In this document: piece by piece, positions 3,054-30,082 of the stretch
Layout of the letters: every line of letters starts with the position of its first letter
Position numbering within the stretch: position 1 is the first letter of the stretch
Assembly: GCA_017540815.1 (NCBI GenBank)
Contig: JAFYAI010000095.1
Location: 1-34,537 of the forward strand
Source of the DNA: Spirochaetales bacterium
GTDB lineage: Bacteria > Spirochaetota > GWE2-31-10 > MWDO01
Reading direction: 5' to 3'
DNA: 34,537 nt
Made by a program: the position numbers and the translations under genes
The notes under the pieces: model-generated
What the model was told of the DNA's origin: nothing
Databases searched by the model: none
The model's input: the letters and a program-made list of their open reading frames with translations, nothing else

Positions 3054-4418
3054 ATGTCTCATAAAACATCATTTCTTGGCACGGAGCCGATTTTTAAGCT
3101 CTTAATGAAGATGAGTATACCTGCTACAATCGGTATGCTGGTCAATGCTCTGTATAACATTGTTGATACAATTTTTGTCGGACGGGGTGTCGGCAAGGAA
3201 GGCATCGCTGCACTGACGATAGTTTTCCCGATACAGATGATCGTCTCATCGTTTGCACAGGCGATGGGGTTTGGTGCTGCATCGGTGCTGTCACGCAAAT
3301 TAGGCGAGAAGAAATACGAAGATGCGGCGGACATGATCGGCACTGCATACACATTTGTATTTATCTCGACTTGGCTGCTTGTAGGATTGTTGTTTGCATT
3401 CTTAGAACCGATACTGCATTTCTTTGGAACTGACGATGTGATAATGCCATATACTAAAGATTATCTTAGTATAGTCGGGTTTGGGTTTATATTCTTCTCA
3501 ATGTCTATGGCTGCGAACAGTCTCATTCGTGCCGAGGGCAATCCGAAAGCCTCGATGAACAGTATGCTTATCGGTGCTGTAACTAACCTTATACTTGATC
3601 CGATCTTCATATTCGGATTGAAATGGGGCATTAAAGGAGCGGCAGCCGCGACTGTCATAAGTCAGATCGTATCGTGCTGCTACATTCTGTCTCTGTATGT
3701 GTTTAAGCGTAATCATATCACGATTCACAGAACTAATTTTAAGATACGGGTTGACCTGCTCGGAGAGAGTGCTTTGCTCGGCATACCGTCATTTGTGCAG
3801 CAGGCCGGGATGTGCATTCTTGCCATTGTTACCAACAATACGCTCCTGACTTACGGAGGCAATATGGCGATTACAGTATTCGGAATGGTTCATAAGTTCA
3901 ATATGATTATCATTATGCCTGTTATCGGTATTGCTCAGGGATTTCAGCCGATTGCCGGATATAATTACGGAGCGGGCGACTACAGCAGGGTGATTAAGGT
4001 GCTTAAGACGGCGATTATAACGGCATTTACAGTGGCGTGTGTTGGTACTGCCATTGCTATGGTATTCCCGCGGCAGTGTATGAGTATATTTATCACGGAT
4101 AATGAAGTACTTGATATGAGTGTGCATGTTGTGAGAATGATATGCTCACTGATTACCCTTGCTTCGGTGCAGATAGTCGGCGGAACTTACTATCAGGCTG
4201 TAGGCAAGCCGGTGCAGTCGCTTGTTCTCGGTCTTATGAGGTCTTTCATCTGTCTTATCCCGCTGCTGCTTACTCTGCCGAGGATATTCGGGCTGAATGG
4301 TATATGGTACTCATATCCTGCCGCCGACTTCATTGGAACGGTGATTACGGTGAGTTTCCTTATTCCATCGGTGATACATCTGAGGGAGAAGATGGCAGCT
4401 GCAATTCATAATGTATAA
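3054..4418 (+). CDS. MATE family multidrug/cation efflux protein
   Basis: A 454-residue integral membrane protein with about twelve hydrophobic segments arranged as two similar halves. The N-terminus (LLMKMSIPATIGMLVNALYN, then IVDTIFVGRGVG) and the 'QGFQPIAGYNYGAG' motif in the middle are characteristic of MepA-like MATE exporters, which expel drugs or toxic cations using a sodium or proton gradient. Length is normal. It starts one base after the preceding stop codon, so it is very probably translated from the same message as the substrate-binding lipoprotein. Whether the two genes act on the same compound is unknown. A strong hairpin ends the transcript. Confidence 0.93.
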   Translation: MSHKTSFLGTEPIFKLLMKMSIPATIGMLVNALYNIVDTIFVGRGVGKEGIAALTIVFPIQMIVSSFAQAMGFGAASVLSRKLGEKKYEDAADMIGTAYTFVFISTWLLVGLLFAFLEPILHFFGTDDVIMPYTKDYLSIVGFGFIFFSMSMAANSLIRAEGNPKASMNSMLIGAVTNLILDPIFIFGLKWGIKGAAAATVISQIVSCCYILSLYVFKRNHITIHRTNFKIRVDLLGESALLGIPSFVQQAGMCILAIVTNNTLLTYGGNMAITVFGMVHKFNMIIIMPVIGIAQGFQPIAGYNYGAGDYSRVIKVLKTAIITAFTVACVGTAIAMVFPRQCMSIFITDNEVLDMSVHVVRMICSLITLASVQIVGGTYYQAVGKPVQSLVLGLMRSFICLIPLLLTLPRIFGLNGIWYSYPAADFIGTVITVSFLIPSVIHLREKMAAAIHNV

Positions 4419-9107: not shown

Positions 9108-9142
9108 ATAAAATGGTATTTATACTTTGCGTAGGAGGCAAT

Positions 9143-12100
9143 ATGTATATTAAAAATATTTGGAAGAATGTTCTCGTTGCACTGATGATCGTATCAATGC
9201 AGCTGACATTTTCGTGGGCACAGGATGCTGAGCCTGCGGCGAATGAAGAAGTGACAGGTGAGGTGACTGAGGCTGCTCCGGCAGAAGAAGTGACTCAGGA
9301 AGAAGCACCTGCTGCTAAGAAAGGTAAAGCAAAGAAAGTCAAGAAAGGTAAGAAAGAGATAGATCCTGAAGAGCTTGCTCGTATCGAGGAAGAGCAGGAG
9401 AATATGCGTCTGCGAAAGGAAGAGGCGGCAGCTGAGAAGAGACGAATCTCTGAGCGAAATGCCCGCAAGCAGCAGAATGCTCACAATGAGGAGATCCTCA
9501 AGAGGAAAGAGACTGCTGAGAAGGTTAAGCAGACTAAGAATGAGATAGCCAGTCTTAATAAGACGATTGCCGAGATTAACAAAAACATTACTAATCTCAA
9601 TAAGCAGAAAGAATTGATTAATGCCGAGATTGTTCGTGAGAATGAGAAAGAGCGTCTTGTTGAACTTATTGACAAGCGTAATCAGCTGACTCAGAACATC
9701 ATTGAGGAGAAGGAAAAAGTTGTCGATAATAAGACACAGATCTCCAAGTTGAATCGAGTCATGGAAGACCTGCTTGATGTATTTGAGCTGGCTGACGGAA
9801 CGCTCAACTGGAGCAAGGAATATAACATCTCCGATAAGGCGAAGTTTACCAACGGTAAATGGTCTGTCCATGTTAAAGCTCGTGATAATATGAACAATGT
9901 CAGTGATGTCGTTGCTCGAAATGTTATTATCGATCCGAAATCTGATATTCCTACGCTTAATATTATCAACCCGACTCCGCGTATGCGTGTGCCCGGCAAC
10001 CTTAAGATTGTCGGTACTGCATTTGATGATGATGCAGTCGATAAAGTAGAGATCAGCATTGATGCAGAGAAGGAGAGCAGAACTGCCATCGGTACTGACT
10101 TCTGGTATTATGACCTTGATACATCCGATCTGAAAGACGGTATTCATTTTATCCGAGTTAAGTGTTACGACCTCAACGGTACTCCTAGCCGTGAATATGA
10201 AGTATGGTTTAACCTTGACCGAAGAACTCCGTTTATCGATATAACTACTATCCAGTCAGGTGAGATCGTATCAGGTGTTATCAATGTTGGCGGAACATCT
10301 TCGGATGATAACGGTATTGAGAGTATCGAATACTCTTTGGATGACCGTGATACATTTAACCCGATACACAGCACTCGTGCTCTGAATGTAAACAGATCGA
10401 CGATGAGCTGGCATGTCAAGATCAATACTGATATGATGCCGGACGGTGTGCAGAATATCTGGTTCCGATCAACTGACCTTGCAGGCTCAGTTGCGTATTA
10501 CCCGCTGACTGTCGTTTGTGATCATCAGAAGCCGACTATATATTTCCAATATCCTAAGGCTAAAGAGAAAGTCGGTATGAAGTTCAATGTAATGGGCTTT
10601 GCTCAGGATAACTTGGAGCTGCTTAGTCTCAAGTTCGCCATTGACAAAGGTCCGTGGCAGGAAGTCGGCATGAAACCCGGTAATCCGCTGTGGACTCACA
10701 TTGTAGATCTGACAGGAACTAAACCGGGACGACATGTTCTGCGTGCTGTCGTAGAAGATGTATCCGGCAACAAGAATGAAACTTCTGTGGATATTATGAC
10801 TGTAGCAGATAAGAAACCTGTGCTAACTCTGCGCAGTCTCAAGCCGGATCAGCCGGTATCTGATTCTCTGCAGCTCTATGGTGAGGCAGCAGATGAAGAT
10901 GGTATTAAGGAAGTGAAAGTCAGCATCAAGCGTGACGGCGGCAGTGAGCCGATATATGTAGCGTCTATTCCATCGGAGTTCTCATTCTCAACTGAGATAG
11001 ATCTTGCAGATCGAAGCAAGTTCTCTGACGGTAAGTATGTCGTAGAGTGCATCCCGGTCAATATCAATGGTGCAGAAGGTGATGCTCAGAAAGGAACATT
11101 TGTTATAGATCGTGGTGCTCCGAGCATTGATGTAAACAGTATTAAGAATAACATTGCCGGCAAGTATTTTAGAGGCAATATCAGTATAAGCGGCATTAAG
11201 ATTAACAAAGGCGGTGAACTGAAGTATGTTAAGTATTCTATCAGAGATGTCAGCAGCGGACAGGAAGTAGTTGCAGAGAAAGATATAACTTTCCGATCAT
11301 CCAACACTCCGGCTGTGTATGATGTCGATACTATCAGTGAGACTATCGAAGGTGCAAGTCCGATCCTGCAGATTACGATCAAGACTGCCGATGCCAACGA
11401 CAATGCGGCAAGTGTTACAGTGCCGTTCATTGTCGATGATGAAGCACCGTCTATCAATATTAACAACTGGGCCGAGAATGAAGAAGACGGTGTGACCGGA
11501 TCTCCTGTTTATCTTATACAGGATAACTCAGGCTATGCAGATGTGAAGATCAAGATCACATCGCCGTCTGATGCTAAGTTCAGCAAAGAGATCTCACTTA
11601 AGACAGGTGACAGACAGGATGTAACTGTTGATGTCAAAGGTCTTGATGGGGTTTATAAGGATTATGTCATTAATGTTAAAGCAACAGATAAGGCCGGCAA
11701 TGAAAAGAACGATGAAAAAGCCGTAACATTCAAAAAATTGGAAGATGCTGTATTCACGATCCGAGTGGGTGTTGCTCCTAATCAGCAGCCTACACATACA
11801 CTGCGTCCTTTGGCATTGCTGCCCGGTAATAATGTCTCTCTTAATGATGTAAGCTATGTTGTATTTGCTGTATTCCCGCCGCAGTCCGAGAATGTCCACA
11901 TGCAGGCACGCTCGGTAGATGTAACGGGAACTGAGATCAACAAAGAATACGGTATATGGATGCTCAATATCTCCGAGCGTGAGCTGAGCAGATTTATGCC
12001 GGGTGAGAATGTATTCTCACTGATGGGATCTATCCGAGGAACAGCCGGTAATGCCGGTAACTTCACGATTGTATCCGGTTCGTCAGATCCGCGCGGACGC

Positions 12101-15100
12101 ATTTTGTGGCCGCCTTCATCGCTGTATTTCAATAAAGAGTTCTCATTGTTCTTCATCGGAGCAAATGATACAGGCAGCGTAACGGCTGACTATGTAATTG
12201 ATGCTGAGCCGAGTGACTCCGCTAACTGGACGGCAGTATCTGCCGAGAGGATAGATGCTATCCGTAACTATCAGGTGCCGAGTATCAATCCTGTTAAGCG
12301 TGATATACAGGAGCAGCTGATCGGTTATGCCGTGAATAATAATATCCCTATTAATCCGGTAACAGATAAACTGTTCAAAGTTGATCTGCCTGTTACAGAG
12401 ATGTCTCCGGGACTGCATACAGTTCATATCCGTATTAAGGATGATGCGGGCAAGATGGTATCGAAGAGCTTTGAGTTCACTTATCAGAATACAAGCCCGA
12501 CATTGAAGATATGGGCTCCGGATGGCAAGGATAACCTTAACGGTATGATCACTATCCGAGGTGAGGCTGAGAATGCTCAGACAGTTGTAGCTCTTCATAA
12601 TAAAGATGAAATAACAGCAACAGGTCGTGTTAGATGGGATATTGATTACAGTCTTGGTGACTTGGATGAGATAGATCCTAAGAATCCGGGTATTGTTACC
12701 AAAGATATAATGCTGTATGCGATAGATAGAGCCGGCAACAGAACTGAGGCTACTCTGACTATTAATATCGATAACGGAACAGATGCTCCGGAAGTCGTTA
12801 TTAACAGCCCTGCTATCGAAGATCAGAGATTTACTGATATTATCGAGATCGGTGGTGTTGCTCTTGATGATGATGGTATTGACTTCGTTCAGTATCGTAT
12901 CGACTACGGTGATCCGGGCAGCGTCTTGGATAAAGTAAAGAAAGCAGAAGTTCAGTGGACTCGTATCGATGTAGAGAAGGGTAATCCTAACTGGTCGAAG
13001 AAGATACCTAAAGATGCTATCAGTTCAGGTCGTCACAAGTTGGAAGTACAGGCGATCGACTTGTATGGTATCGCTTCCGAGATTAAGGAGATACATTTCC
13101 ATGTAGATAATGAGAACCCGGAGATCACGATCTCAATGCCACAGACTGGTGAGTATCTGCGTGGTGAGACAACGATCACAGGACGGGCACGAGATCCTAA
13201 CGAGATAGATTTCGTTGAGATAAGTACCAACTATGGTTGGACATTCTCACGAGCGGAAGGTAACTCCAGTTGGACATACTATTTCGACTCACGATCTGTT
13301 CCTGACGGACCATTGCGAGTACTTATCCGTGCAAGAGATAAGGCGGGCAGTGAGGCATTCTCATTCGGATTGTATAATATAGATAATACTCCGCCTGAGA
13401 TCGACATTTTGCTGCCGAAGGATGGTATGTCAGTTAATAATGTATATAAAGTCGTAGGTCGTGCTAAGGATAATGTCGGCATTGATACAGTCAAGTTGTA
13501 TGTCGATGGTAACTTGGAGAGTAAGGATCAGATATACGGCACTGAGACAGAAGGTCGAGATAAAGGTTTCTTCGAGTTGGATGGCCGTGAAGCATGGGAG
13601 TTTGACCTTGATACGACTAATCTTGTGAGATTGGATAAGTATCAGTTGGTTGCTCGTGTAACAGACTTGTCTGGTAATATGTCGGAGAAGTCATTGAACT
13701 TTACAGTTAATCTGATGTCTGACTTCCCGAATGTAACGATAGATCAGCCACAGCCTGGACAGCATTTGTCAGGACGAACGCTTGATTTCTTCGGAACGGC
13801 TAGTGATGATGATGCGATCGACAGAGTTCTTGTCAAGATCGATGATGAGGATATGGTTGAAGCACGAGGCAAGGAGATGTGGAACTATTCACTGTCTACT
13901 GTAGGTCTCCAGCCTGGTGTTCACAGATTGTCAGTTGTTGTCTATGAGAAGCCTGTCAATGAGGGTGATCAGCCGAAGATGAGGTCTTTGACACGACAGT
14001 TCTACTATGATAACGGCGGTCCTGTCATCAATGTAGCATCTCATATTAACGGTGCTCCTATGGAACACAGACCGTGGATGTTCGGTACTGCAGAATATTT
14101 CGAGGATAACCTTGAGCTGAAGCTCAAAGAACAGATCCAGCACAAGAAATATCTGGAACTCAAGATGAAGTATCGACGGGATCAGGCTAAAGTAGAGGAG
14201 CTTAAAGCTAATGTAGATAAGATCCCTGTAACTCCTGCCGAAGTTGCTTCGTTAAAGAAGGCATACTTGGCTGAGAATGCAGTATCTGCGATCTATCTGT
14301 CATTGGATAACGGTAATACTTACACTAAGGCGATAGGTACACCTGAGAATTGGAAGATCCGAGTGCAGACACAGTATCTGCAGGATGGAGACCATGTGCT
14401 GCAGATTAAAGCTGTAACTAAGAATGGCAAGGAGTCACTGAGATACTTCCGAGTATGGATTAACAGAAATATCCCGGATGTTATCATTGATACTCCTATG
14501 GATAGTGCACATATTAATGATAGATTGAGTGTGCGTGGTTCTGCCGATGATGACGGTTCGATAGAGAGTGTCAAGATCCTGTTCAGACGGCATGATAAGA
14601 ACTTAGGTAAAGTGCCGCAGTTCGTTCAGGGATTATATCTGTGGTTGCAGGTATTTGGTGGACCGTATGTGTCAGGTGGTATCGGACTTTCATTCTTCGA
14701 TGATATTGTTCGAGTCGAAGCGATGTTCGGTTGGGTTCCGACAGTTGAGAATATGGATGATATTCTGTCGGCATCCGGTGGTTCGCAGGATCAGAGATTC
14801 TTTACTCCGGAATGGGGCTGGAAGAACTATAGGTATGAGCCGCGATTCAGCGGATTTATCGCCGGTGGTAAACTCTTGGCTCGTATTATCGATATACCGT
14901 ATGAGTTCTTCTTCGGTGAGGATGCTAAGAACTTCTCATTCAGTGTAGAACTTGGATGTGCGTTCTATTGGTTCTCAGGATACGGAGCAGGAACTGGCGA
15001 GAAATATAATCTCGTCACGGATAAGTCAGACCCTGATTGGGCATACTCGGCTTACAATAGTAAGAAGTCTAAAGTCTTGGCCGGATTCATGGTTCAGGCA

Positions 15101-15241
15101 GACTTGTTCAAGATTGAACGATGGGCGATATTCAGGAAGTTTGCATTCTACTTTGAGGCGGCATTCTTCTTCAATACATCGGAGCAGGAAGGTGGTTTGT
15201 TCCCGCAGTTCGGTTTCGGTATAAGGAACGCATTGTTCTAA
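9143..15241 (+). CDS. Giant exported Ig-like repeat protein with coiled coil and outer-membrane-like C-terminus
   Basis: The start at 9143 is chosen over 9113 because AGGAGG lies five bases before it and it gives a clean signal peptide (cleavage probably after SWA, residue 26). The 2,032-residue product then has an acidic Ala/Pro/Glu stretch and a Lys-rich patch (KKGKAKKVKKGKK). A long charged coiled coil follows at about residues 65-190. Many beta-sandwich repeats run to about 1650; recurring signatures are 'DDDGID.V', 'G.A.D..GI..V' and 'DNTPPEI'-like junctions, as in Bacterial Ig/Big_9 domains. A second short coiled coil lies near 1655-1710. The last ~200 residues are aromatic and glycine-rich, with alternating strands ending in Phe, as in outer-membrane beta proteins. 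A surface scaffold or adhesin anchored in the outer membrane is the best inference; no enzyme motif is seen. Confidence 0.85.
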   Translation: MYIKNIWKNVLVALMIVSMQLTFSWAQDAEPAANEEVTGEVTEAAPAEEVTQEEAPAAKKGKAKKVKKGKKEIDPEELARIEEEQENMRLRKEEAAAEKRRISERNARKQQNAHNEEILKRKETAEKVKQTKNEIASLNKTIAEINKNITNLNKQKELINAEIVRENEKERLVELIDKRNQLTQNIIEEKEKVVDNKTQISKLNRVMEDLLDVFELADGTLNWSKEYNISDKAKFTNGKWSVHVKARDNMNNVSDVVARNVIIDPKSDIPTLNIINPTPRMRVPGNLKIVGTAFDDDAVDKVEISIDAEKESRTAIGTDFWYYDLDTSDLKDGIHFIRVKCYDLNGTPSREYEVWFNLDRRTPFIDITTIQSGEIVSGVINVGGTSSDDNGIESIEYSLDDRDTFNPIHSTRALNVNRSTMSWHVKINTDMMPDGVQNIWFRSTDLAGSVAYYPLTVVCDHQKPTIYFQYPKAKEKVGMKFNVMGFAQDNLELLSLKFAIDKGPWQEVGMKPGNPLWTHIVDLTGTKPGRHVLRAVVEDVSGNKNETSVDIMTVADKKPVLTLRSLKPDQPVSDSLQLYGEAADEDGIKEVKVSIKRDGGSEPIYVASIPSEFSFSTEIDLADRSKFSDGKYVVECIPVNINGAEGDAQKGTFVIDRGAPSIDVNSIKNNIAGKYFRGNISISGIKINKGGELKYVKYSIRDVSSGQEVVAEKDITFRSSNTPAVYDVDTISETIEGASPILQITIKTADANDNAASVTVPFIVDDEAPSININNWAENEEDGVTGSPVYLIQDNSGYADVKIKITSPSDAKFSKEISLKTGDRQDVTVDVKGLDGVYKDYVINVKATDKAGNEKNDEKAVTFKKLEDAVFTIRVGVAPNQQPTHTLRPLALLPGNNVSLNDVSYVVFAVFPPQSENVHMQARSVDVTGTEINKEYGIWMLNISERELSRFMPGENVFSLMGSIRGTAGNAGNFTIVSGSSDPRGRILWPPSSLYFNKEFSLFFIGANDTGSVTADYVIDAEPSDSANWTAVSAERIDAIRNYQVPSINPVKRDIQEQLIGYAVNNNIPINPVTDKLFKVDLPVTEMSPGLHTVHIRIKDDAGKMVSKSFEFTYQNTSPTLKIWAPDGKDNLNGMITIRGEAENAQTVVALHNKDEITATGRVRWDIDYSLGDLDEIDPKNPGIVTKDIMLYAIDRAGNRTEATLTINIDNGTDAPEVVINSPAIEDQRFTDIIEIGGVALDDDGIDFVQYRIDYGDPGSVLDKVKKAEVQWTRIDVEKGNPNWSKKIPKDAISSGRHKLEVQAIDLYGIASEIKEIHFHVDNENPEITISMPQTGEYLRGETTITGRARDPNEIDFVEISTNYGWTFSRAEGNSSWTYYFDSRSVPDGPLRVLIRARDKAGSEAFSFGLYNIDNTPPEIDILLPKDGMSVNNVYKVVGRAKDNVGIDTVKLYVDGNLESKDQIYGTETEGRDKGFFELDGREAWEFDLDTTNLVRLDKYQLVARVTDLSGNMSEKSLNFTVNLMSDFPNVTIDQPQPGQHLSGRTLDFFGTASDDDAIDRVLVKIDDEDMVEARGKEMWNYSLSTVGLQPGVHRLSVVVYEKPVNEGDQPKMRSLTRQFYYDNGGPVINVASHINGAPMEHRPWMFGTAEYFEDNLELKLKEQIQHKKYLELKMKYRRDQAKVEELKANVDKIPVTPAEVASLKKAYLAENAVSAIYLSLDNGNTYTKAIGTPENWKIRVQTQYLQDGDHVLQIKAVTKNGKESLRYFRVWINRNIPDVIIDTPMDSAHINDRLSVRGSADDDGSIESVKILFRRHDKNLGKVPQFVQGLYLWLQVFGGPYVSGGIGLSFFDDIVRVEAMFGWVPTVENMDDILSASGGSQDQRFFTPEWGWKNYRYEPRFSGFIAGGKLLARIIDIPYEFFFGEDAKNFSFSVELGCAFYWFSGYGAGTGEKYNLVTDKSDPDWAYSAYNSKKSKVLAGFMVQADLFKIERWAIFRKFAFYFEAAFFFNTSEQEGGLFPQFGFGIRNALF

Positions 15242-19852: not shown

Positions 19853-19887
19853 GAATATATTTTAGGAAAATATATTCTTGACAGATT
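19843..19887. promoter_or_regulatory. Perfect 21-bp palindrome between divergent promoters
   Basis: Arms 19843-19863 and 19867-19887 are exact inverse copies around AGG. Each arm contains a TTGACA used as the -35 of the outward-facing promoter. It could be an operator seen by a dimeric regulator or a structural element shared by both promoters. Confidence 0.7.
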
Positions 19888-19906
19888 GATGTTGTGAGAG
19901 TATAAT
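19878..19906 (+). promoter_or_regulatory. Consensus promoter of the small-peptide/radical SAM operon
   Basis: TTGACA (19878-19883), 17-base spacer, TATAAT (19901-19906): a perfect match to the sigma-70 consensus. GGAGGA lies five bases before the first ATG at 19936. Confidence 0.8.
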
Positions 19907-19935
19907 ATAATGGGGGAGTATATTGGAGGAATGAA

Positions 19936-20142
19936 ATGAAAGCGAAGAAAGGCGTAAAGATACTTGGAGCGGTGCTTGGTGCCGCGGCGATTAGTATGAC
20001 GGTTATATGCTGCTATGCACCGAGCGGTGACATTCGTGACATCGGCGAGACTGATAATGGCGATTATATCGAGCAGATTGCAGCAGAGAATTCGCAGTTA
20101 GTGACATTTGATGATGATGAAAAGGGAGAAACAAAAAAATGA
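19936..20142 (+). CDS. Small exported Y-A-P / DYIEQ peptide 1 (candidate radical SAM substrate)
   Basis: A 68-residue peptide with a basic start (MKAKKGVK), a hydrophobic stretch and a Cys pair at 25-26 that may be a relaxed lipobox. The short acidic mature part has CYAPSGDI followed by DYIEQIAAENS. The same Y-(A/G)-P and DYIEQ blocks recur in the next two genes. Excellent ribosome site GGAGGA. Its stop overlaps the next start (ATGA). No known domain is recognised. The role as substrate of the downstream radical SAM enzyme is inferred from operon structure and shared motifs. Confidence 0.75.
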   Translation: MKAKKGVKILGAVLGAAAISMTVICCYAPSGDIRDIGETDNGDYIEQIAAENSQLVTFDDDEKGETKK

Positions 20143-20321
20143 AGCGAAGTACTAAAGCAATTTTTTTGAGTGCGATTACTTTGACAACAGTTTCCTGTTT
20201 TCCTGTATATTATGGTCCGGATGTGGATATAGTATCTGGTGATGATTACATTGAGCAGATCGCACATGAAGAGTCACAAATTGTTACAACAGATAAGAAT
20301 GATATAAAGGAACAAAAATGA
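20139..20321 (+). CDS. Small exported Y-G-P / DYIEQ peptide 2
   Basis: A 60-residue paralogue of its neighbours: basic N-terminus MKRSTK, hydrophobic segment, Cys20 in TTVSC, then PVYYGPDVDI and DDYIEQIAHEES. The mature part is short, acidic and lacks other cysteines. Both ends use four-base ATGA overlaps with the neighbours, so translation should be coupled along the cluster. Confidence 0.75.
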   Translation: MKRSTKAIFLSAITLTTVSCFPVYYGPDVDIVSGDDYIEQIAHEESQIVTTDKNDIKEQK

Positions 20322-20521
20322 AAAAAAGCACAAAATCTATATTTGCGGCGGTTGTTACAGCATCTGTAATATCTTGCGGTGGATATGCAGTGTATGGTCC
20401 AGGACCTGATGTTGATAACTCAGATGACTATATAGAGCAGGTCGCGAAAGAAAATTCCGAGATGAATGTGACATTCGGCGAAGCGGAAGATAATCGAGAG
20501 TCTAAAACAGACTCAGAATGA
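20318..20521 (+). CDS. Small exported Y-G-P / DYIEQ peptide 3
   Basis: A 67-residue paralogue: MKKSTKS start, Cys20 in SVISC, then YAVYGPGPDVD and DDYIEQVAKENSE with an acidic tail. It starts inside the stop of peptide 2 (ATGA). The Tyr-Gly-Pro and DYIEQ blocks are in the same order and spacing as in peptide 2, pointing to tandem duplication. Confidence 0.75.
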   Translation: MKKSTKSIFAAVVTASVISCGGYAVYGPGPDVDNSDDYIEQVAKENSEMNVTFGEAEDNRESKTDSE

Positions 20522-20569
20522 CAAAATAACCGTGAAAGCATGTCGCGGACATTATGAGGAGTAAAAAAA

Positions 20570-20836
20570 ATGAAAAAACCAGGACGAATTTTATTGTCAG
20601 CAATACTTGCTGCAGCTGTAACTGTCGGATGCAACGATAAGAATACTAAGGAAGATAATATGAAACAGCCTAATAATAAACAGGATAATACATTTTACAA
20701 TGAGCCTGTCTGCATTTACGGTCCGCCGGAGATGCTCGGTGCTCTGAACAGAATCGATGACTCACCGGAGATCGATCTGCCTGAGCCGGAAGAAATTGAG
20801 GAGCCTACAACCGATAAGACAAACAATGAGGAATAA
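20570..20836 (+). CDS. Small exported lipoprotein-like peptide 4 with Y-G-P-P motif
   Basis: An 88-residue relative with the clearest lipobox of the set (TVGC, Cys21). A polar Asn/Lys/Asp linker follows, then EPVCIYGPPEML and a strongly acidic Pro/Glu tail. It keeps the Tyr-Gly-Pro motif but lacks DYIEQ, and has an extra Cys two residues before the Tyr. GAGGAG precedes its ATG. The 48-base gap before it includes a small ATGTC-GCG-GACAT hairpin. The radical SAM gene starts two bases after its stop. Confidence 0.75.
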   Translation: MKKPGRILLSAILAAAVTVGCNDKNTKEDNMKQPNNKQDNTFYNEPVCIYGPPEMLGALNRIDDSPEIDLPEPEEIEEPTTDKTNNEE

Positions 20837-20838
20837 CA

Positions 20839-21912
20839 ATGCTTGACATTAAACTGAAGAAAGAGAAAGCCGACATGGTTGCCGACTATCGCAGGCAACT
20901 GCAGAAATCCCCCAAACTCAAATATTTATTCTTAGAACTTACATCACATTGCAACGAGAGCTGCCTGCACTGCGGCAGCCGCTGCGGTGAGTTTGAGTAT
21001 GATGAACTCACATTCGATGATTACAGACATATCCTTGATACCGTTAAAGAAGACTTCGACATTCGCAGGATGATGCTCTGTATTACAGGCGGTGAGCCGC
21101 TGCTCAGACCTGATTTCTTCGAGATAATGAATTATGCGAAGAGTCTCGGCTTCACTTGGGGAATGACGAGTAACGGCACTCTCATCGACGATGAAGTGAC
21201 TCAGCGGCTTTATGATGCCGGTATGGGCACAATCGCCGTGAGCATTGACGGACTGCCTGAGTATCATGACGCATTTCGGAGGACTCCCGGCGGTTTCGAC
21301 GCTGCGATGAAAGGACTGCACTCTCTTGTGGACTTCGGCAAATTCAAAGATGTGATGGTTACAACTGTCATTACCCACCAAAACATTGACCAGCTTGATG
21401 CGTTGTATGACATTTTCCGGGATATAGATATCGACACATGGCGTGTGATCAATATGGAACCTATGGGGCGTGCCAACGACTATCCCGATCTGTTGCTGAC
21501 GAAGGACGACTATATCAGATTGTTCGAGTTTATCCGCAATAAGCGTATCGCCAATGAGAATGTAACTTACGGCTGCGGGCACTTCCTCGGACCTGAGTAT
21601 GAGGGCGAACTGCGTGACTGGTTCTATATGTGTATCGCCGGAACGCAGGTGGCAAGCATTGCATCGAATGGTGACATCCTTGCGTGCCTTGACATTGAAC
21701 GCCGTCCCGAACTGGTGCAGGGCAATATCAAGACTGACAGATTTGGCGATGTGTGGCGGGATAAGTTTGACTTCTATCGGCGAGATCTCGGCTCGGAATG
21801 TGCCGAGTGTCACAATTGTGACTATTACAAATATTGTCTCGGCGACTCGGTGCACAGCTGGGATTTTGAGAAGAATAAACCCGGATTGTGCATGAAAGGG
21901 ATTGTGTTTTGA
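20839..21912 (+). CDS. Radical SAM/SPASM peptide-modifying enzyme
   Basis: A 357-residue radical SAM protein. Cys38, Cys42 and Cys45 (SHCNESCLHC) bind the 4Fe-4S cluster that cleaves S-adenosylmethionine. 'ITGGEPLLRPDF' and 'GMTSNGTLI' are standard core motifs. The C-terminal half has a SPASM-type cysteine set (CGHF, MCIAG, LACLD, then CAECHNC, YCLG and LCMKG) for auxiliary clusters, as in enzymes that crosslink or otherwise modify ribosomal peptides. GAGGAA lies seven bases before the ATG, two bases after the fourth small peptide gene. I recall a described 'rSAM/lipoprotein system' family pairing (TIGR04133/TIGR04134); whether this enzyme belongs there needs an HMM search. The modified residue is unknown. 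Confidence 0.9.
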   Translation: MLDIKLKKEKADMVADYRRQLQKSPKLKYLFLELTSHCNESCLHCGSRCGEFEYDELTFDDYRHILDTVKEDFDIRRMMLCITGGEPLLRPDFFEIMNYAKSLGFTWGMTSNGTLIDDEVTQRLYDAGMGTIAVSIDGLPEYHDAFRRTPGGFDAAMKGLHSLVDFGKFKDVMVTTVITHQNIDQLDALYDIFRDIDIDTWRVINMEPMGRANDYPDLLLTKDDYIRLFEFIRNKRIANENVTYGCGHFLGPEYEGELRDWFYMCIAGTQVASIASNGDILACLDIERRPELVQGNIKTDRFGDVWRDKFDFYRRDLGSECAECHNCDYYKYCLGDSVHSWDFEKNKPGLCMKGIVF

Positions 21913-21913
21913 G

Positions 21914-21939
21914 AAAAAGTCATCAGGTGATGACTTTTT
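21914..21939. terminator. Terminator with TCATCAGGTGATGA core, after the radical SAM gene
   Basis: Arms 21914-21925 and 21928-21939 pair perfectly around GG and run into a T-tract, two bases after the stop codon. First copy of the recurrent 14-base core. Confidence 0.8.
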
Positions 21940-21963
21940 TTTGTTAATAATATTTTTTTTCGG

Positions 21964-23515: not shown

Positions 23516-26500
23516 ATGGAAACGATTGATAGTTTTTGCGGGCAGAAGAATGGGTATTCAATTTCCAAAACATTGAGGTTTGAGCTAAAACCTGTTGGTC
23601 AGACTTTGGAAAGCATAAAGAATGGAAAATTTCTTGAATCAGACAAAAAGAAAGCAGATGATTATCAGGATGTAAAAAAAATAATCGACAACTATCATAA
23701 TTTTTTTATAGATGATGTTCTTAAAAGTGCAAGTTTTGATTGGAGGCAACTTGAGAAATCTATTCATGAATATAATAAAAACAAAACTGATGATTCTGAA
23801 TTCGTAAAAGAACAAGATAAACTAAGAAAAGGAATTGCAGATTTGTTTTCAAAAGATAAGCGTTATAAATCTTTAACCGCATCAACTCCAAGCGACTTGT
23901 TTAATAAAGATAAAGACTTTATTGACTGGCTTGCACAAACTTCTGTAAAAGAAATAAGAAAAGACGCATTAGAAACTTTCAAAAGGTTTTCTTCATATTT
24001 TACAGGCTTTCAGGAAAACAGAAAGAATGTATATAAATCAGATCTGATTCCTACTGCAGTTCCATATCGTATCGTAAATGACAATTTCCCGAAATTTTTG
24101 CAGAACATTTCTATATTCAAGACGATTCAAAAAAAGTGTCCTCAAGTTATAGATGATGTAGAAAATGAGTTGTGCAGATATTTAGGTCAGGAAAAACTTT
24201 CTGATATTTTTAGACTTGAATCTTTCAACAAATTTTTAGGACAGAGTGGAAAAGAAGTTCAGCGTGGAATTGATTTTTACAATCAGATTATCGGAGGAAT
24301 TGCAGAAAAAGAAGGCGGCGTAAATCTTCGGGGAATAAATCAGTTTTTGAATCTCTACTGGCAGCAACACCCGGATTTTGCAAAGGAAAACCGTAGAGTG
24401 AAAATGGTTCCCCTTTACAAACAGATTTTAAGTGACCGTTCAAGCCTTTCGTTCAAAATAGAAAGTATTGCAAATGATGAAGAATTAAAAAATGCGCTCC
24501 TTGAATGTGCAGATAAACTTGAATCACAAAATGAAGAAGGAAAATCAGTTTTTGATGAGACTTGTGATTTGTTTGCTTCATTAAAAAATCAGAATTTGAG
24601 CGGGATTTATATAAATAGAAAAGACATAAATGCAGTTTCCAGAATTCTTACCGGGGACTGGTCTTGGCTTCAATCCCGCATGAATGCTTATGCCAAAGAA
24701 AAGTTTACTACAAAAGCAGAAAAAGCCCGCTGGCAAAAATCTTTGGATGACGAAGGAGAAAATAAATCTAAGGGATTTTATAGCCTTGCAGAATTAAATG
24801 AGCTTCTTGAATATGTAAGTGAAAATGTGGCAGAAACAAATATCCGCATAAGTGATTATTTTGATCACCGATGCAGGTATTATGTTGATAAAGAAACTGA
24901 AAAGTTTGTTCAAGGAAGTGAATTAGTTGCCCTTTCTATAAAAGAAATGTGTGATAGTATTCTTGCAAAAAGAAAGTCCATGAATGGAGTTTTGGAAAAT
25001 CTTTCAGATGAAAAACTCTTGCAGGAAAAGCCGGAGGATGTAGCCGTCATAAAGGATTATCTTGATGCTGTTCAGGAATTGCTTCATAGAATAAAGCCTT
25101 TGAAAGTAAACGGAGTTGGGGATGCTGCTTTCTATTCTGTTTTTGATTCAATTTATTCTGCATTGAGCGAAGTAATTTCCGTATACAATAAGACTAGAAA
25201 TTACATTACAAAAAAGGCTGCGAGCCCTGAAAAATATAAGTTGAATTTTGAGTCTCCAACATGTGCGAACGGATGGGCATTGAATAATGAATTGATGTAT
25301 GGATGTATTCTATTACGAAAGCAGGATAAATATTACTTGGGAATTATGAATAAAGATGAACATAAGTTCTTTAAGAAATACCCTTTAGCAAAACCTAGAG
25401 ATGATTTCTTTGAAAAAATGATATATCTGCAGGCTGCGGATCCAAGTAAAGATGTTCCAAATTTAATGGTTATTAATGGAAAAACTGTTAAGAAAAATGG
25501 GCGTAAGGATTCAGATGGAGTAAATAGACAACTTGAAGAATTGAGAAATACATATTTACCAGAAAATATAAATAAAATAAGAAAATCAAAATCATACTTG
25601 AAATCATCGGAAACTTTTAGTAAAGAGGATTTAACAGAATATATTGAATATTATAAAGAACGCGCTATAGATTATTTTAATTCATACAAGTTCTTTTTTA
25701 AAAATTCAGCAGATTATACATCCTTTGTTGAATTTACAGATGATATAAATGCTCAGGCATATCAAATTCAATTTGTTAAAATAACGACTTCATTTATTAC
25801 TCAAATGGTTAATGGAGGTAAGTTATTTCTGTTCCAAATCTATAATAAAGATTTTTCAGAAAAATCAAATGGAAAGAAAAATCTTCATACTCTTTATTTT
25901 GAAAATTTATTCTCGGAAGAAAATCTGAAAAACACAGTCTTAAAACTGTCTGCGGGTGCTGAACTTTTCTATCGTCCTGCAGGGATAAAAGAGCCAACGG
26001 TTCATGCTAAGGGGTCTTACCTTGTAAACAGGACTACAGAAGATGGGGAAGCAATTCCAGAAAATATATATCTTGAAATTTATAAAAATGCAAACGGAAA
26101 ACTTGAAAGTCTTTCTGATGAGGCAAAGGCTTATAAGGAAAGTCATAAGGTTGTCATAAAAAAAGCTGGTCACGAAATCATAAAAGACCGGCATTACACT
26201 GAACCAAAATTCCTTTTCCATGTTCCACTCACAATCAATTTTAAGGCATCAGGAAATTCTTATTCTATAAACGAAAATGTCCGCAGATTCCTAAAAAATA
26301 ATCCTGATGTAAATATCATAGGTCTTGACCGCGGTGAACGGCATCTTATTTATCTTTCTCTCATAAATCAGAAAGGAGAAATAATTAAGCAGTTTACTTT
26401 TAACGATGTTGAACGAGAGCAAAATGGCCAGATCGTAAAAGTAAACTATCATGAAAAACTTGATCAAAGAGAAAAGGTGCGTGATGCCGCAAGAAAAAGC

Positions 26501-27556
26501 TGGCAGGCAATCGGTAAAATTGCGGAACTCAAGGAAGGATATCTTTCTGCTGTAATTCATCAGCTTACAAAACTCATGGTGGAATACAACGCTATTGTTG
26601 TTATGGAAGATTTGAACTTTGGCTTCAAGCGTGGGCGATTCCATGTGGAAAAGCAGGTTTATCAGAAATTTGAACACATGCTTATTGATAAATTGAATTA
26701 TCTTGTCTTTAAGGACAGAGGCTTGAATGAGCCGGGTGGAGTCTTAAATGGCTATCAGCTTGCGGGGCAATTTGAAAGTTTTCAGAAACTTGGAAAACAG
26801 TCTGGAATGCTCTTTTATGTGCCGGCTGGTTATACTTCAAAAATTGACCCAAAAACGGGATTCGTGAGCATGATGAACTTTAAGGATTTGACCAATGTTC
26901 ACAAAAAGAGGGATTTTTTTGCCAAATTTGATGATATTCATTTTGATAATGCAACCGGCTCTTTTGTGTTCACATTCGATTACAAGAATTTTGACGGCAA
27001 GGCTAAAGAAGAAATGAAGCAGACGAAGTGGTCTGTTTATTCAAGAGACAAGAGAATTGTATATTTTTCTAAAACAAAATCTTATGAAGATATTATGCCA
27101 ACAGAAAAATTGAGAGCCTTGTTTGAGTCCGCTGGAATTGAATATAAATCCAGCAACGATATCCTTGATTCAATAATGGCTGTCGGTGCAGATTTAAAAG
27201 ATGGGGCTAAGCCTTCAAGAGAAATTGCAGATTTCTGGGATGGTCTTCTTTATAATTTCAAACTTATTTTGCAGATGCGTAATTCAAATGCAAAGACTAG
27301 TGAAGATTATATTATTTCGCCGGTTATGGCAAGTGACGGAACTTTCTTTGATTCTCGTGAAGAATTTGACAAAGGTAAAGATGCAAAACTTCCTTTGGAT
27401 GCAGATGCAAACGGTGCATATCACATTGCATTGAAAGGGCTATCATTGATTAAGAAGATAAATCTTTCAAAAGATGCTGAACTTAAAAAGTTTGATATGA
27501 AAATCTCCAACGCCGACTGGTTTAAGTTTGTTCAGCAAAAGGAATATACTAAGTAA
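23516..27556 (+). CDS. cas12a: CRISPR-associated endonuclease Cas12a (Cpf1)
   Basis: An apparently intact 1,346-residue type V-A effector. It begins GYSISKTLRFELKPVGQTL, the usual N-terminal WED strand. All three RuvC motifs are present: GLDRGERH (Asp938), VVMEDLNFGFKRGRF (Glu1031) and DADANGAYHIALKGL (Asp1297). The Nuc-domain Arg1255 is in LQMRNS. The pre-crRNA-processing segment FHVPLTINFK keeps the His and Lys of the family, so it should mature its own guides. The bridge-helix region 'ARKSWQAIGKIAELKEGYLS' is conserved. It would cut DNA matching array spacers next to a T-rich PAM. It is preceded by a consensus promoter and followed by a hairpin, then cas4-cas1-cas2. The gene is AT-rich and GAA/AAA-biased, consistent with mobility. 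Confidence 0.98.
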   Translation: METIDSFCGQKNGYSISKTLRFELKPVGQTLESIKNGKFLESDKKKADDYQDVKKIIDNYHNFFIDDVLKSASFDWRQLEKSIHEYNKNKTDDSEFVKEQDKLRKGIADLFSKDKRYKSLTASTPSDLFNKDKDFIDWLAQTSVKEIRKDALETFKRFSSYFTGFQENRKNVYKSDLIPTAVPYRIVNDNFPKFLQNISIFKTIQKKCPQVIDDVENELCRYLGQEKLSDIFRLESFNKFLGQSGKEVQRGIDFYNQIIGGIAEKEGGVNLRGINQFLNLYWQQHPDFAKENRRVKMVPLYKQILSDRSSLSFKIESIANDEELKNALLECADKLESQNEEGKSVFDETCDLFASLKNQNLSGIYINRKDINAVSRILTGDWSWLQSRMNAYAKEKFTTKAEKARWQKSLDDEGENKSKGFYSLAELNELLEYVSENVAETNIRISDYFDHRCRYYVDKETEKFVQGSELVALSIKEMCDSILAKRKSMNGVLENLSDEKLLQEKPEDVAVIKDYLDAVQELLHRIKPLKVNGVGDAAFYSVFDSIYSALSEVISVYNKTRNYITKKAASPEKYKLNFESPTCANGWALNNELMYGCILLRKQDKYYLGIMNKDEHKFFKKYPLAKPRDDFFEKMIYLQAADPSKDVPNLMVINGKTVKKNGRKDSDGVNRQLEELRNTYLPENINKIRKSKSYLKSSETFSKEDLTEYIEYYKERAIDYFNSYKFFFKNSADYTSFVEFTDDINAQAYQIQFVKITTSFITQMVNGGKLFLFQIYNKDFSEKSNGKKNLHTLYFENLFSEENLKNTVLKLSAGAELFYRPAGIKEPTVHAKGSYLVNRTTEDGEAIPENIYLEIYKNANGKLESLSDEAKAYKESHKVVIKKAGHEIIKDRHYTEPKFLFHVPLTINFKASGNSYSINENVRRFLKNNPDVNIIGLDRGERHLIYLSLINQKGEIIKQFTFNDVEREQNGQIVKVNYHEKLDQREKVRDAARKSWQAIGKIAELKEGYLSAVIHQLTKLMVEYNAIVVMEDLNFGFKRGRFHVEKQVYQKFEHMLIDKLNYLVFKDRGLNEPGGVLNGYQLAGQFESFQKLGKQSGMLFYVPAGYTSKIDPKTGFVSMMNFKDLTNVHKKRDFFAKFDDIHFDNATGSFVFTFDYKNFDGKAKEEMKQTKWSVYSRDKRIVYFSKTKSYEDIMPTEKLRALFESAGIEYKSSNDILDSIMAVGADLKDGAKPSREIADFWDGLLYNFKLILQMRNSNAKTSEDYIISPVMASDGTFFDSREEFDKGKDAKLPLDADANGAYHIALKGLSLIKKINLSKDAELKKFDMKISNADWFKFVQQKEYTK

Positions 27557-27566
27557 AATATAACAA

Positions 27567-27596
27567 AAACAACTGTTGATATTTCAACAGTTGTTT
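27567..27596. terminator. 13-bp hairpin between cas12a and cas4
   Basis: Arms 27567-27579 and 27584-27596 pair perfectly around TATT, with a short A-run before and TTT after. It may terminate or attenuate transcription into the adaptation genes, separating effector and adaptation expression. Confidence 0.6.
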
Positions 27597-27611
27597 CATC
27601 ATTATATATTT

Positions 27612-28169
27612 ATGGAAGCATATCTCAAAATCAGTTATCTGAATGACTTTATATTTTGTCCGCTGTCTATCTATTTCCATCAGTTGTATGGCGAACTGAT
27701 GAATCGAATGTATTATGATGAATGTCAGATAAACGGTAAGGCGGCACATGCAGCAATCGATGAACAGCGATATTCTACGCACAAGAATATTTTACAGGGA
27801 ATCGATGTCTATAGCGATGAATATAAATTATGCGGTAAGATTGATATTTTTGATATGGATAAGGGTATACTGACTGAACGAAAAAAACACATCGAGACGA
27901 TTTATGACGGATATATCTTTCAATTATATGCACAGTACTTTTGTTTGAAGGAAATGGGGTATAATATTAAGCAAATAAGATTTTACTCTTCGGATGACAA
28001 TAAGGTGTATCCGCAAAATGTGCCGGAGAATAATCCGGTTATGATGGAAAAATTTCAGTCAACGATAAAAGCGATACAGTCATTTGATGTTGAAAATTTC
28101 TTGCCGGCCAATAAATCAAAATGTGAAAATTGTATTTACATTGATTTTTGTGACAGAACTTTAGCATGA
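27612..28169 (+). CDS. cas4: CRISPR adaptation nuclease Cas4
   Basis: The start at 27612 (MEAYLKISYLNDF) is chosen because the longer frame would run through the hairpin. The 185-residue RecB-like protein has the four iron-sulfur cysteines of Cas4 (Cys16; Cys171, Cys174 and Cys180 in KCENCIYIDFC). It also has the nuclease core 'CGKIDIFDMDKG', 'LTERKK' and 'YDGYIFQLYAQYFCL'. Cas4 trims prespacers and selects for the PAM during spacer acquisition. No strong ribosome site is visible, so its translation may be weak or start elsewhere. cas1 follows after 16 bases. Confidence 0.93.
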   Translation: MEAYLKISYLNDFIFCPLSIYFHQLYGELMNRMYYDECQINGKAAHAAIDEQRYSTHKNILQGIDVYSDEYKLCGKIDIFDMDKGILTERKKHIETIYDGYIFQLYAQYFCLKEMGYNIKQIRFYSSDDNKVYPQNVPENNPVMMEKFQSTIKAIQSFDVENFLPANKSKCENCIYIDFCDRTLA

Positions 28170-28185
28170 CGGAGATATAACGGGA

Positions 28186-29232
28186 ATGATGAGTACGCTT
28201 GATTTTGAACAGAAACAAATCGCTTTTGTCTTTTTGGAAGAAGGAGAATGCGTCTCATTCAATAATGACAATATAGTCATCAAAGATGCTGACAATAAGA
28301 TTAAACATCAATCGACTTGTTATCGTTTGTTTGCGTTGTTTATTTGCGGACATACATGTATTACCAGCGGTTTGCTGGAGCGGGCTGCTAAATTCGGTTT
28401 TAGCATTATATTAATGACTGTGAATATGCGACCGATTCAGATTATCGCTGCACGAGCGGAGGGGAATGTACTCTTGCGGCGTAAACAGTATGAATACGAT
28501 AAACAGGACATTGGAGCTCATGTCATTGCCAATAAGATACACAATCAGAATTATTTGCTGAAGAAAAAACGCAAAAAGACAGAAAAGGAAAAAGAGGTGA
28601 TAAAAAAGCTGGAGCAGTACGAACAGGATGTCCAAAAAGGCGGCCTGTCTGTTCAGGAAATAATGGGAATAGAAGGAGTCAGTGCAAAACTGTATTTCCA
28701 GACTTTGTTTGGTGAATATAACTGGATTGCTCGCCGACCGCGTGTCAAACATGACATGATAAATTGCTTGATGGATATTGGATATACGATTGTTTTTAAC
28801 ATTGTCAATGCACTGCTTGAAATGTACGGCTTCGATGTGTATGTTGGAATACTTCATACGCAGTTTTTTCATCGGAAGTCACTGTCTTGTGATATGGAAG
28901 AACCTTTTCGGCCGATTATTGATGCGGCTATCTTAAAAATGATGAACCTTGGACAAGTCCACGAAAAAGATTTTTGGATCAGGGACAAGCAGTATATTTT
29001 GGGCGGTAAAAAAGCCGCTCCGTATGTGACATTGCTGATACAATCTGTTATGGAATATAAAAATGAGATTTTTTTGTATTTGCAGAGTTATTACAGAGCA
29101 TTTATGAGAGACAAGCCGTCTTCGTCATTCCCGACATTCTATATGGATAAAGACGAAGCTGAGAAGAAAAAACAACAGGAAAATGGAAAAAATGAAAATA
29201 ATGATGAAAATGATTGTCAAAATATTAAATAA
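28186..29232 (+). CDS. cas1: CRISPR integrase Cas1
   Basis: A 348-residue Cas1. The catalytic metal ligands are visible: Glu163 in 'IMGIEGVSAKLYF', His224 in 'GILHTQFFHRKSLSCD', and Asp236 in 'CDMEEPFRPIID'. With Cas2 it would insert new spacers at the leader end of the array. A Lys-rich linker (LLKKKRKKTEKEKEVIKKLE) lies at 124-143 and an acidic/Asn-rich tail ends the protein. Two ATGs open the frame (28186 and 28189), and the ribosome site is weak. The 3' end contains a promoter-like sequence for cas2. Confidence 0.96.
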   Translation: MMSTLDFEQKQIAFVFLEEGECVSFNNDNIVIKDADNKIKHQSTCYRLFALFICGHTCITSGLLERAAKFGFSIILMTVNMRPIQIIAARAEGNVLLRRKQYEYDKQDIGAHVIANKIHNQNYLLKKKRKKTEKEKEVIKKLEQYEQDVQKGGLSVQEIMGIEGVSAKLYFQTLFGEYNWIARRPRVKHDMINCLMDIGYTIVFNIVNALLEMYGFDVYVGILHTQFFHRKSLSCDMEEPFRPIIDAAILKMMNLGQVHEKDFWIRDKQYILGGKKAAPYVTLLIQSVMEYKNEIFLYLQSYYRAFMRDKPSSSFPTFYMDKDEAEKKKQQENGKNENNDENDCQNIK

Positions 29233-29242
29233 TTGTTATAAT
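29214..29242 (+). promoter_or_regulatory. Putative promoter of cas2 (and perhaps the array), overlapping the cas1 end
   Basis: TTGTCA (29214-29219), 17-base spacer, TATAAT (29237-29242). The expected start is at or next to the cas2 ATG at 29250, so the transcript would be nearly leaderless. Confidence 0.45.
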
Positions 29243-29249
29243 TGAAGAA

Positions 29250-29525
29250 ATGTTATTGGTAAGTTATGATATTAGTAATACAAAAGTAAGAACAAAATTC
29301 TCAAAGTATCTAAGCAAGTTTGGATTTCGCTTGCAGTACTCGGTCTTTGAAATTAAGAACAGTGAAAGGATCCTGCATAACATTGAGACTGAGATACAGA
29401 ATACTTACATGAAGTTGTTTACGCAAACTGACAGTGTGATTATCTTTCATCTTGGAGAGAATTATAAGAGAACTTGTTATGGATACGCAAAAAATGAAGA
29501 AACTGACTTATTTGTCATTACATAA
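29250..29525 (+). CDS. cas2: CRISPR adaptation protein Cas2
   Basis: A 91-residue ferredoxin-like protein beginning MLLVSYDIS, with the usual Asp7. It has 'RTKFSKYLSKFGFRLQYSVFE' minus one residue as the helix and second strand, and 'SVIIFHLGEN' as a later strand. It forms the dimer core of the Cas1-Cas2 integrase. Length and position after cas1 and before the array are standard for type V-A. The ribosome site is poor, fitting a leaderless or coupled start. Confidence 0.95.
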   Translation: MLLVSYDISNTKVRTKFSKYLSKFGFRLQYSVFEIKNSERILHNIETEIQNTYMKLFTQTDSVIIFHLGENYKRTCYGYAKNEETDLFVIT

Positions 29526-29646
29526 TAAAATTGCAAACCTATGGTCTTACTGTCAAAAAACGGCCTTTTTTGCCGGTTTTTTATATATTTTTAGAGCCAT
29601 TTTCGGCTCATCCTTTATTTTAATGCACCGTTGTGCATCGTTAGGG
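29526..29646 (+). promoter_or_regulatory. CRISPR leader with three small hairpins
   Basis: The 121 bases between cas2 and the first repeat contain a bulged terminator-like hairpin (29555-29582, AAAAAACGGC/GCCGGTTTTTT), a GAGCC/GGCTC hairpin near 29594-29610 and ATGCAC/GTGCAT near 29622-29638. It lies at the expected integration end. I see no clear array promoter in it. Confidence 0.6.
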
Positions 29647-29931
29647 GTCTAGACCTTATAAATAATTTCTACTGTTGTAGATTTCTGTAGCAACAGCATA
29701 TTGGAACGGTCTAGACCTTATAAATAATTTCTACTGTTGTAGATAAAAAGTGATCTTATTGCTTTGTGTGGTCTAGACCTTATAAATAATTTCTACTGTT
29801 GTAGATTTGATTTTTTCGATCTGCTCTATTGCGTCTAGACCTTATAAATAATTTCTACTGTTGTAGATGTGGAATAAATTACTCATGAATGGCGTGTCTA
29901 GACCTTATAAATAATTTCTACTGTTGTAGAT
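29647..29931 (+). CRISPR. Type V-A CRISPR array: five 36-nt repeats, four spacers
   Basis: Identical 36-nt repeats start at 29647, 29709, 29771, 29833 and 29896. Spacers are 29683-29708, 29745-29770 and 29807-29832 (26 nt each) and 29869-29895 (27 nt). Each repeat ends TAATTTCTACTGTTGTAGAT, the Cas12a crRNA handle with stem TCTAC/GTAGA, and begins with the palindrome GTCTAGAC. The 3' repeat is not degenerate. Orientation places the array as the last part of the cas12a-cas4-cas1-cas2 locus, with crRNAs on the plus strand. I found no spacer match inside the window. Confidence 0.99.
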
Positions 29932-30082
29932 TTGAATATTTGGCACGGCAACGCTTATAACCACCGCGGCGAAGCAGCAATTGTGCGAGTATCTTGATTA
30001 TTATCATATCGATAAAGGCTGCATGCTAAGTTTTTGCTTTAATCAGAATAATCAAAAATCATCAGCTGATGATTTTTCATAA
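29932..30082 (+). pseudogene. Frameshifted C-terminal remnant of an AAA-ATPase-like/PD-(D/E)XK protein
   Basis: Directly after the last repeat the plus strand reads IWHGNAYNHRGEAAIV, then stops. One frame over it continues as QLCEYLDYYHIDKGCMLSFC and then FNQNNQK before a stop at 30082. Joined with a +1 shift near 29980, this resembles the nuclease-like C-terminus (IW.G..Y...G...L..YLDYYH...GYMLSF.FN) of the AAA-ATPase_like/PDDEXK_9 proteins common in Treponema and Bacteroidetes. The family call is from memory of the motif. The rest of the gene is missing. The tail runs into the TCATCAGCTGATGA palindrome. Confidence 0.6.
30054..30077. terminator. Perfect 24-bp palindrome with TCATCAGCTGATGA core
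   Basis: A-tract, core and T-tract form one uninterrupted 12+12 palindrome at the end of the pseudogene remnant. It is a plausible bidirectional terminator downstream of the CRISPR array. Confidence 0.65.

Follow-up and report, generated by a model that had tools for sequence, protein, structure and literature searches.

Four small Tyr-Gly-Pro peptides encoded with a radical SAM/SPASM enzyme in a spirochaete: a predicted peptide-modifying operon related to the PlpX class

The operon and its surroundings

The window analysed here is a stretch of 34,537 nucleotides from a Spirochaetales bacterium (GenBank assembly GCA_017540815.1, contig JAFYAI010000095.1, positions 1 to 34,537 of the forward strand). 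On its + strand, at 19878-21942, lies one compact operon in which four genes for small peptides with predicted export are followed by the gene for a radical SAM/SPASM enzyme. Its features are listed below.

19878..19906, + strand: putative promoter TTGACA-17-TATAAT, a 12/12 match to the sigma-70 consensus
19936..20142, + strand: peptide gene 1 (ORF), 68 aa; signal, CC, then YAP
20014..20022, + strand: Tyr-Ala-Pro core of peptide 1 (CYAP), residue 27, from the shuffle test
20062..20094, + strand: DYIEQIAAENS box of peptide 1, from sequence comparison
20139..20321, + strand: peptide gene 2 (ORF), 60 aa; overlaps gene 1 by ATGA
20211..20219, + strand: Tyr-Gly-Pro core of peptide 2 (YYGP), residue 25, from the shuffle test
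20244..20276, + strand: DYIEQIAHEES box of peptide 2, from sequence comparison
20318..20521, + strand: peptide gene 3, 67 aa; lipobox VISC, canonical by eye; overlaps gene 2 by ATGA
20393..20401, + strand: Tyr-Gly-Pro core of peptide 3 (VYGP), residue 26, from the shuffle test
20426..20458, + strand: DYIEQVAKENS box of peptide 3, from sequence comparison
20570..20836, + strand: peptide gene 4, 88 aa; a typical YGPP-family precursor with NEPVCI-YGPPEML
20717..20728, + strand: Tyr-Gly-Pro-Pro core of peptide 4 (IYGPP), residue 50, from the shuffle test
20839..21912, + strand: enzyme of 357 aa with radical SAM and SPASM domains, in a lineage sister to TIGR04133, from profile, tree and model
20950..20979, + strand: cluster motif CNESCLHCGS of the enzyme; HCGS is common to PlpX/GDL and TIGR04133 enzymes
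21911..21942, + strand: Rho-independent terminator hairpin with U-run, 3' of the enzyme gene (-15.3 kcal/mol, z = -5.8)

The initial annotation, made from the letters of the DNA, described four consecutive genes of 60-88 codons that form one operon with the enzyme, and the ORFs, of 68, 60, 67 and 88 aa, bear this out. A purine-rich Shine-Dalgarno sequence stands ahead of each of the five start codons, the consensus promoter sits 29 bases 5' of the start codon of peptide gene 1 and the terminator closes the unit. The ORF coordinates also agree with the ATGA overlaps described earlier, which join peptide genes 1/2 and 2/3, and with the gap of 2 nt between gene 4 and the enzyme; genes 3 and 4 are 48 nt apart. 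The ORF list holds no further genes in the operon beyond these five, and scanning the window for Rfam families and tRNAs gave no lead.

Three other observations concern the window at large. The palindrome TCATCAG[GC]TGATGA is found at seven sites (21920, 30059, 30187, 31616, 31667, 31770 and 31904) against an expectation of 0.02; two of the seven lie inside longer inverted repeats and one is the operon's terminator. A type V-A CRISPR-Cas locus at 23516-29934, 1.6 kb downstream of the operon, comprises Cas12a (1165 bits), cas4, cas1, a cas2-like ORF recognized by eye and five repeats ending AATTTCTACTGTTGTAGAT. An ORF of 2042 aa at 9113-15241 has matches to OmpL47-type and Ca2+-repeat adhesin sequences.

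The four peptides

All four peptides have hydrophobic N-termini, and Y-[GA]-P is present once in each. Shuffle tests for Y[GA]xP gave p values of 0.017, 0.017, 0.034 and 0.029 for peptides 1-4, or jointly ~3e-7 if these are independent. The motif had been placed just after the signal in every peptide; it does occur in all four, but in peptide 4 it lies ~27 residues past the Cys. Judged by eye, the lipobox and its Cys are canonical in peptide 3 (VISC), near-canonical in peptides 2 and 4 (TVSC and TVGC) and non-canonical in peptide 1 (VICC). The Ala of the peptide 1 core recurs in the Y[GA] cores of loci L055 and L181 and of the GDL peptides of L186, and NEPVCI-YGPPEML of peptide 4 resembles NEPVEV-YGPPEMF of the L071 precursor.

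Peptides 1-3 share DYIEQ[IV]AxExS, as had been described for three of the four. Across the DYIEQ regions and N-termini these peptides differ at 19/11/37 sites in codon positions 1/2/3; since the differences fall mostly at the third position, the three genes appear to be translated and under selection. None of the four peptides matches a Pfam or NCBIfam family or has a second occurrence in this genome. A search for the DYIEQ motif gave no convincing match in 393 spirochaete genomes, and other matches were weak and mostly in long ORFs. The same 393 genomes gave no convincing match in a check, set beforehand, for such peptides standing without a radical SAM gene. Because DYIEQ is seen in this window alone, the idea that it is the core on which a wider family is built was rejected; of the motifs first taken as conserved, it is the Tyr-Gly-Pro site that extends across relatives.

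The enzyme

The enzyme matches PF04055 (6.3e-21) and PF13186 (1.7e-7) and carries both CxxxCxxC and the SPASM cysteines, in agreement with its first reading as a radical SAM/SPASM enzyme. The suggested profile search found TIGR04133 to be by far the best named family, but the score of 272.9 bits lies under the cut-off of 425; relatives in the window clade score 247-317 bits and true members 502-543 bits. TIGR04134, the partner lipoprotein family (cut-off 39.8 bits), has no match among the four peptides or elsewhere in the genome, and genomes of the same family do match it. Plain membership of the window system in TIGR04133/TIGR04134 is ruled out by the enzyme score and by this missing partner. 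The score against TIGR04103, the PlpX family, is 114.2 bits for a cut-off of 725. An AlphaFold model (pLDDT 82.9) has SPASM enzymes as its best fold matches, SkfB, SuiB and CteB among them, and only ~28 residues precede the barrel, so no RRE domain is seen.

Relatives and their substrates

The closest enzymes, 51-56% identical, come from Lachnospiraceae, Coriobacteriales, Erysipelotrichaceae and other Clostridia; a scan of the whole collection gave 51-55% identity in uncultured Clostridiales, Lachnospiraceae, Erysipelotrichaceae and Coriobacteriaceae. A survey of genomes had the enzyme in 19/397 from Lachnospiraceae and in 35/399 from the order to which the Coriobacteriaceae genome belongs. 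These enzymes adjoin exported peptides with 1-7 copies of [V/L]YGPP. Acidic spacers surround the repeated VYGPP cores, of which L076 has five, L074 three and L071 two, and up to seven YGPP per precursor occur in L170, L204, L211 and L213. In 26 Coriobacteriales precursors there are 103 YGPP cores, preceded at -1 by Val (83%) or Leu (17%) and most often spaced 17 residues apart; [FY]-[DE]-P-x2-N lies upstream at -11 to -6, with Asn at -6 in 81% and Phe/Tyr at -11 in 81%. Twin-arginine-like signals, present on 18 of the 26, fit export after cytoplasmic modification. Searches of the relatives' precursors against Pfam and NCBIfam found nothing beyond weak chance matches and a DUF805 membrane domain at L169, where a DUF805 membrane protein (2604-3329) ends in a C-terminal tail with four YGPP cores and one YGVP.

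A sister sub-clade of enzymes stands beside a different kind of protein: all seven of its loci (L072, L073, L158, L159, L171, L173 and L179) have zinc-ribbon proteins with one central IYGPxP site. In the enzyme trees, which are midpoint-rooted and of limited sampling, the clade splits by substrate type, and the window enzyme falls inside the exported-peptide sub-clade (SH-aLRT 97). Spirochaete genomes of the same order encode true TIGR04133 enzymes (502-543 bits) adjoining TIGR04134 lipoproteins of 149-157 aa; Treponema saccharophilum (L162) and a second locus of the phylum (L063) have the same lipoprotein. Throughout the TIGR04133 set, spirochaetes included, Tyr-Gly-x-Pro directly follows the lipobox (CYGMP, CYGTP, MYGVP), often with a CarboxypepD_reg-like domain behind it. 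Short partners that lack this domain stand beside TIGR04133-clade enzymes at L048 (60 aa), L055 (61 aa, CYAPGG), L082, L087 and several Bacteroidota loci. On these comparisons, the Tyr-Gly-Pro site is the part that is kept when the rest of the partner lipoprotein is lost.

A few loci depart from the common pattern. The substrates of L043 and L044 have YIGPP, YMGPP and YAGP, off the XYG rule. At L180 two tiny lipopeptides (1288-1491 and 3059-3250) ending YYGCPNS[RK][RK]VKKLNL... flank a distant member of the enzyme clade. At L178 a pseudo-enzyme without CxxxCxxC (1074-1481 and 1495-2532 for the pair of genes) adjoins a membrane peptide with RSGPPEM at the core, in place of the VYGPPE of other peptides. 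At this one locus enzyme and substrate may have decayed together, with Val and Tyr lost and GPPE kept.

Whether homologues of the enzyme neighbour such peptides was a check set in advance. By hand count, a protein with YG/YA-P is adjacent to or near the enzyme in 29/29 Coriobacteriales loci and in 28/30 other loci of the clade, the exceptions being L167, where none was seen, and the decayed L178. Under one automatic rule, such a neighbour was counted at 18/28 clade loci, at 55/75 TIGR04133 loci and at 1/51 loci with other SPASM enzymes; this rule overlooks zinc-ribbon and mis-started genes, and the hand count is therefore reported alongside. Small genes beside a dedicated maturase, with a conserved and often repeated core, are what is found here, as for RiPP precursors. 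The enzyme-peptide pairing and the role of Tyr-Gly-Pro as the probable target site are well supported. In line with the earlier proposal, the predicted exported lipopeptides are most likely modified by the enzyme in their Tyr-Gly-Pro region. It is very unlikely that the enzyme has its target elsewhere and that these are small lipoproteins or scaffold peptides of an ordinary kind: short lipoproteins are common and YGP by itself is a short motif, but such neighbours occur at just 1/51 other SPASM loci, the cores are tandemly repeated and the enzyme sub-clades track substrate type.

Origin of the locus

The contig also encodes a seryl-tRNA synthetase, which shares 69-72% identity with those of same-family genomes and 36-40% with those of Firmicutes/Coriobacteriia genomes. 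The contig is thus spirochaetal, and the possibility that a Firmicutes contig had contaminated the bin was rejected. No closer spirochaete copy of the enzyme was found in 393 spirochaete genomes, and the enzyme is nested among Firmicutes/Coriobacteriia sequences, so horizontal transfer is the simplest reading; the window enzyme was probably acquired in this way. The peptides had been taken for a new family in a spirochaete-like host. The host is indeed spirochaetal, but the clade is otherwise one of Lachnospiraceae, other Clostridia, Erysipelotrichaceae and Coriobacteriales.

Proposed reaction and its alternatives

TIGR04133 and the window clade together join the PlpX/GDL class in the trees, with SH-aLRT of 98 in the smaller set and only 88 in the wider set; these trees are midpoint-rooted with limited sampling, and SkfB/CteB-like enzymes are absent from the wider one. 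Gly46 and Ser47 of HCGS, Trp201, Ala212 and Arg259 are common to PlpX/GDL, the window clade and TIGR04133, and uncommon in other sampled SPASM enzymes. In Nostoc sp. C057, the TIGR04103 enzyme (853 bits) is accompanied by a Nif11 precursor with GSIALYGLPPELF at its end. At Xaa-Tyr-Gly, PlpXY takes out a tyramine equivalent (C8H9NO, ~135 Da), leaving an alpha-keto-beta-amino residue, and tags such as PIRPLYGLPI are its substrates (PMC10533398; PMC11002830). Xaa-Tyr-Gly is present in window peptides 2, 3 and 4, and peptide 1 has CYA.

Given the tree grouping, the shared residues, the Nostoc LYGLPP precursor and the PlpXY chemistry, we favour, with moderate confidence, tyramine excision at the Tyr-Gly-Pro site as the most likely reaction of the enzyme. 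Confidence is kept moderate by the absence of a PlpY-like partner, by the YxGPP and YAP substrates and by our finding in the literature no described product of any enzyme in the window clade. The operon would supply four small precursors and one dedicated radical SAM/SPASM maturase, which would act in the cytoplasm at Xaa-Tyr-Gly(Ala)-Pro in every one of the peptides. A tyramine equivalent would leave from the Tyr and the backbone would be re-joined, giving an alpha-keto-beta-amino residue at Xaa. The modified peptides would then be exported by means of their N-terminal signals, and at least some would probably be lipidated at Cys and stay on the envelope, where the displayed electrophilic ketoamide might trap serine or cysteine proteases in a covalent but reversible manner.

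The initial annotation was silent on excision and gave a crosslink or an epimerisation as example chemistry, both of which fit less well. A crosslink of the core, either a cyclophane or ether between the Tyr and a neighbouring residue or a Tyr-Pro link, formed with no tyramine excision, would be in keeping with the C-C, C-O or C-S links made by many SPASM maturases, with SkfB, CteB and SuiB being among the solved structures closest in fold and sequence, and with the invariance of Tyr in recognized cores. No single partner residue is conserved with that Tyr besides Gly-Pro-Pro and a small hydrophobic residue, however, and a nearby Cys is absent from most cores; the decayed L178 locus lost Val and Tyr and kept GPPE, and the enzyme groups with PlpX among the sampled families, in a tree that lacks SkfB/CteB-like enzymes. 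We regard a crosslink as unlikely, if the strongest of the alternatives. A thioether between Cys and Tyr was rejected as the general reaction, because most YGPP cores have no nearby Cys.

Slightly less probable again is an epimerisation or other alteration of Xaa, Tyr or Pro without splicing (a D-residue, desaturation, hydroxylation or methylation). Radical SAM epimerases such as PlpD do act on RiPP precursors (PMC11002830), the idea was put forward in the first reading of the locus, and it would accommodate the loose second position (YAP, YxGP). It is disfavoured by the strict Tyr and Gly preceded by Val/Leu, which match the known splicing site, and by the kinship of the enzyme with PlpX.

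Significance

If tyramine excision is the reaction, many gut bacteria would display ketoamide peptides. Ketoamide chemistry is used in protease-inhibitor drugs. We put forward, tentatively and with rather less confidence than the reaction itself, that TIGR04133 enzymes and those of the YGPP sister clade may all be spliceases, widespread in gut Firmicutes, Coriobacteriia, Bacteroidota and spirochaetes; that their ketoamides, single or in arrays of up to seven in envelope-anchored peptides and in zinc-ribbon proteins, may act as surface covalent protease traps or reactive sites; and that the window records lateral transfer of such a system into a spirochaete. The comparisons tie the so far unexplained TIGR04133/TIGR04134 pair to an enzyme class of known, rare chemistry, with substrates that include tandem-core precursors of common gut bacteria belonging to no Pfam or NCBIfam family. 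With one precursor and one enzyme the idea is directly testable, as each core is predicted to become 135 Da lighter. Spliceases were reportedly surveyed widely in a 2022 Chem paper, which may already include some TIGR04133-like enzymes.

Comparison with known systems

The sactipeptide, ranthipeptide and streptide maturases SkfB, CteB and SuiB share the radical SAM and SPASM fold with the window enzyme. The bonds made by maturases of this type involve Cys or Lys-Trp partners, and the enzymes have an RRE domain; neither such partners nor the domain is seen in the window system.

The PlpX/TIGR04103 system is alike in its X-Y-G-(x)-P core (the Nostoc precursor ends in ALYGLPPELF) and in the enzymes, which form sister classes with HCGS and Trp201. 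It differs in that full-length enzyme identity is ~27%, and the substrates here are predicted exported lipopeptides or zinc-ribbon proteins. PlpX precursors have a leader of Nif11 or nitrile-hydratase type, whereas Pfam finds none on the four window peptides, and PlpX acts with a partner, PlpY, whereas the window operon encodes no PlpY/RRE partner. To our knowledge, a Pro directly after the Gly of the core has not been shown for known spliceases. A PlpX-class enzyme with an HCGSSC motif was also seen in a Treponema MAG (L143, 4001-4963).

In the GDL system (TIGR03913 with DUF1843 peptides) the enzyme is 48% identical to the Nostoc PlpX-family enzyme, and the peptides of the GDL-like locus L186 start LYAA, MYAA or PYGA, with Y[GA] as in the window peptides. 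Unlike the window system, it has short, soluble-looking peptides without a signal and a longer enzyme, which belongs with PlpX by sequence.

The nearest named family remains TIGR04133/TIGR04134, whose enzyme lies directly downstream of an exported lipoprotein in which C-Y-G-x-P or a similar site follows the signal. A Tyr-Gly-x-Pro-type site behind a putative lipoprotein signal is likewise found in the neighbour genes of the window enzyme, as YAP in peptide 1 and displaced in peptide 4. The difference lies in the architecture of the substrate: there a single lipoprotein of 125-160 aa with a CarboxypepD_reg-like C-terminal domain, here four tandem small peptides and, in the relatives, multi-core precursors.
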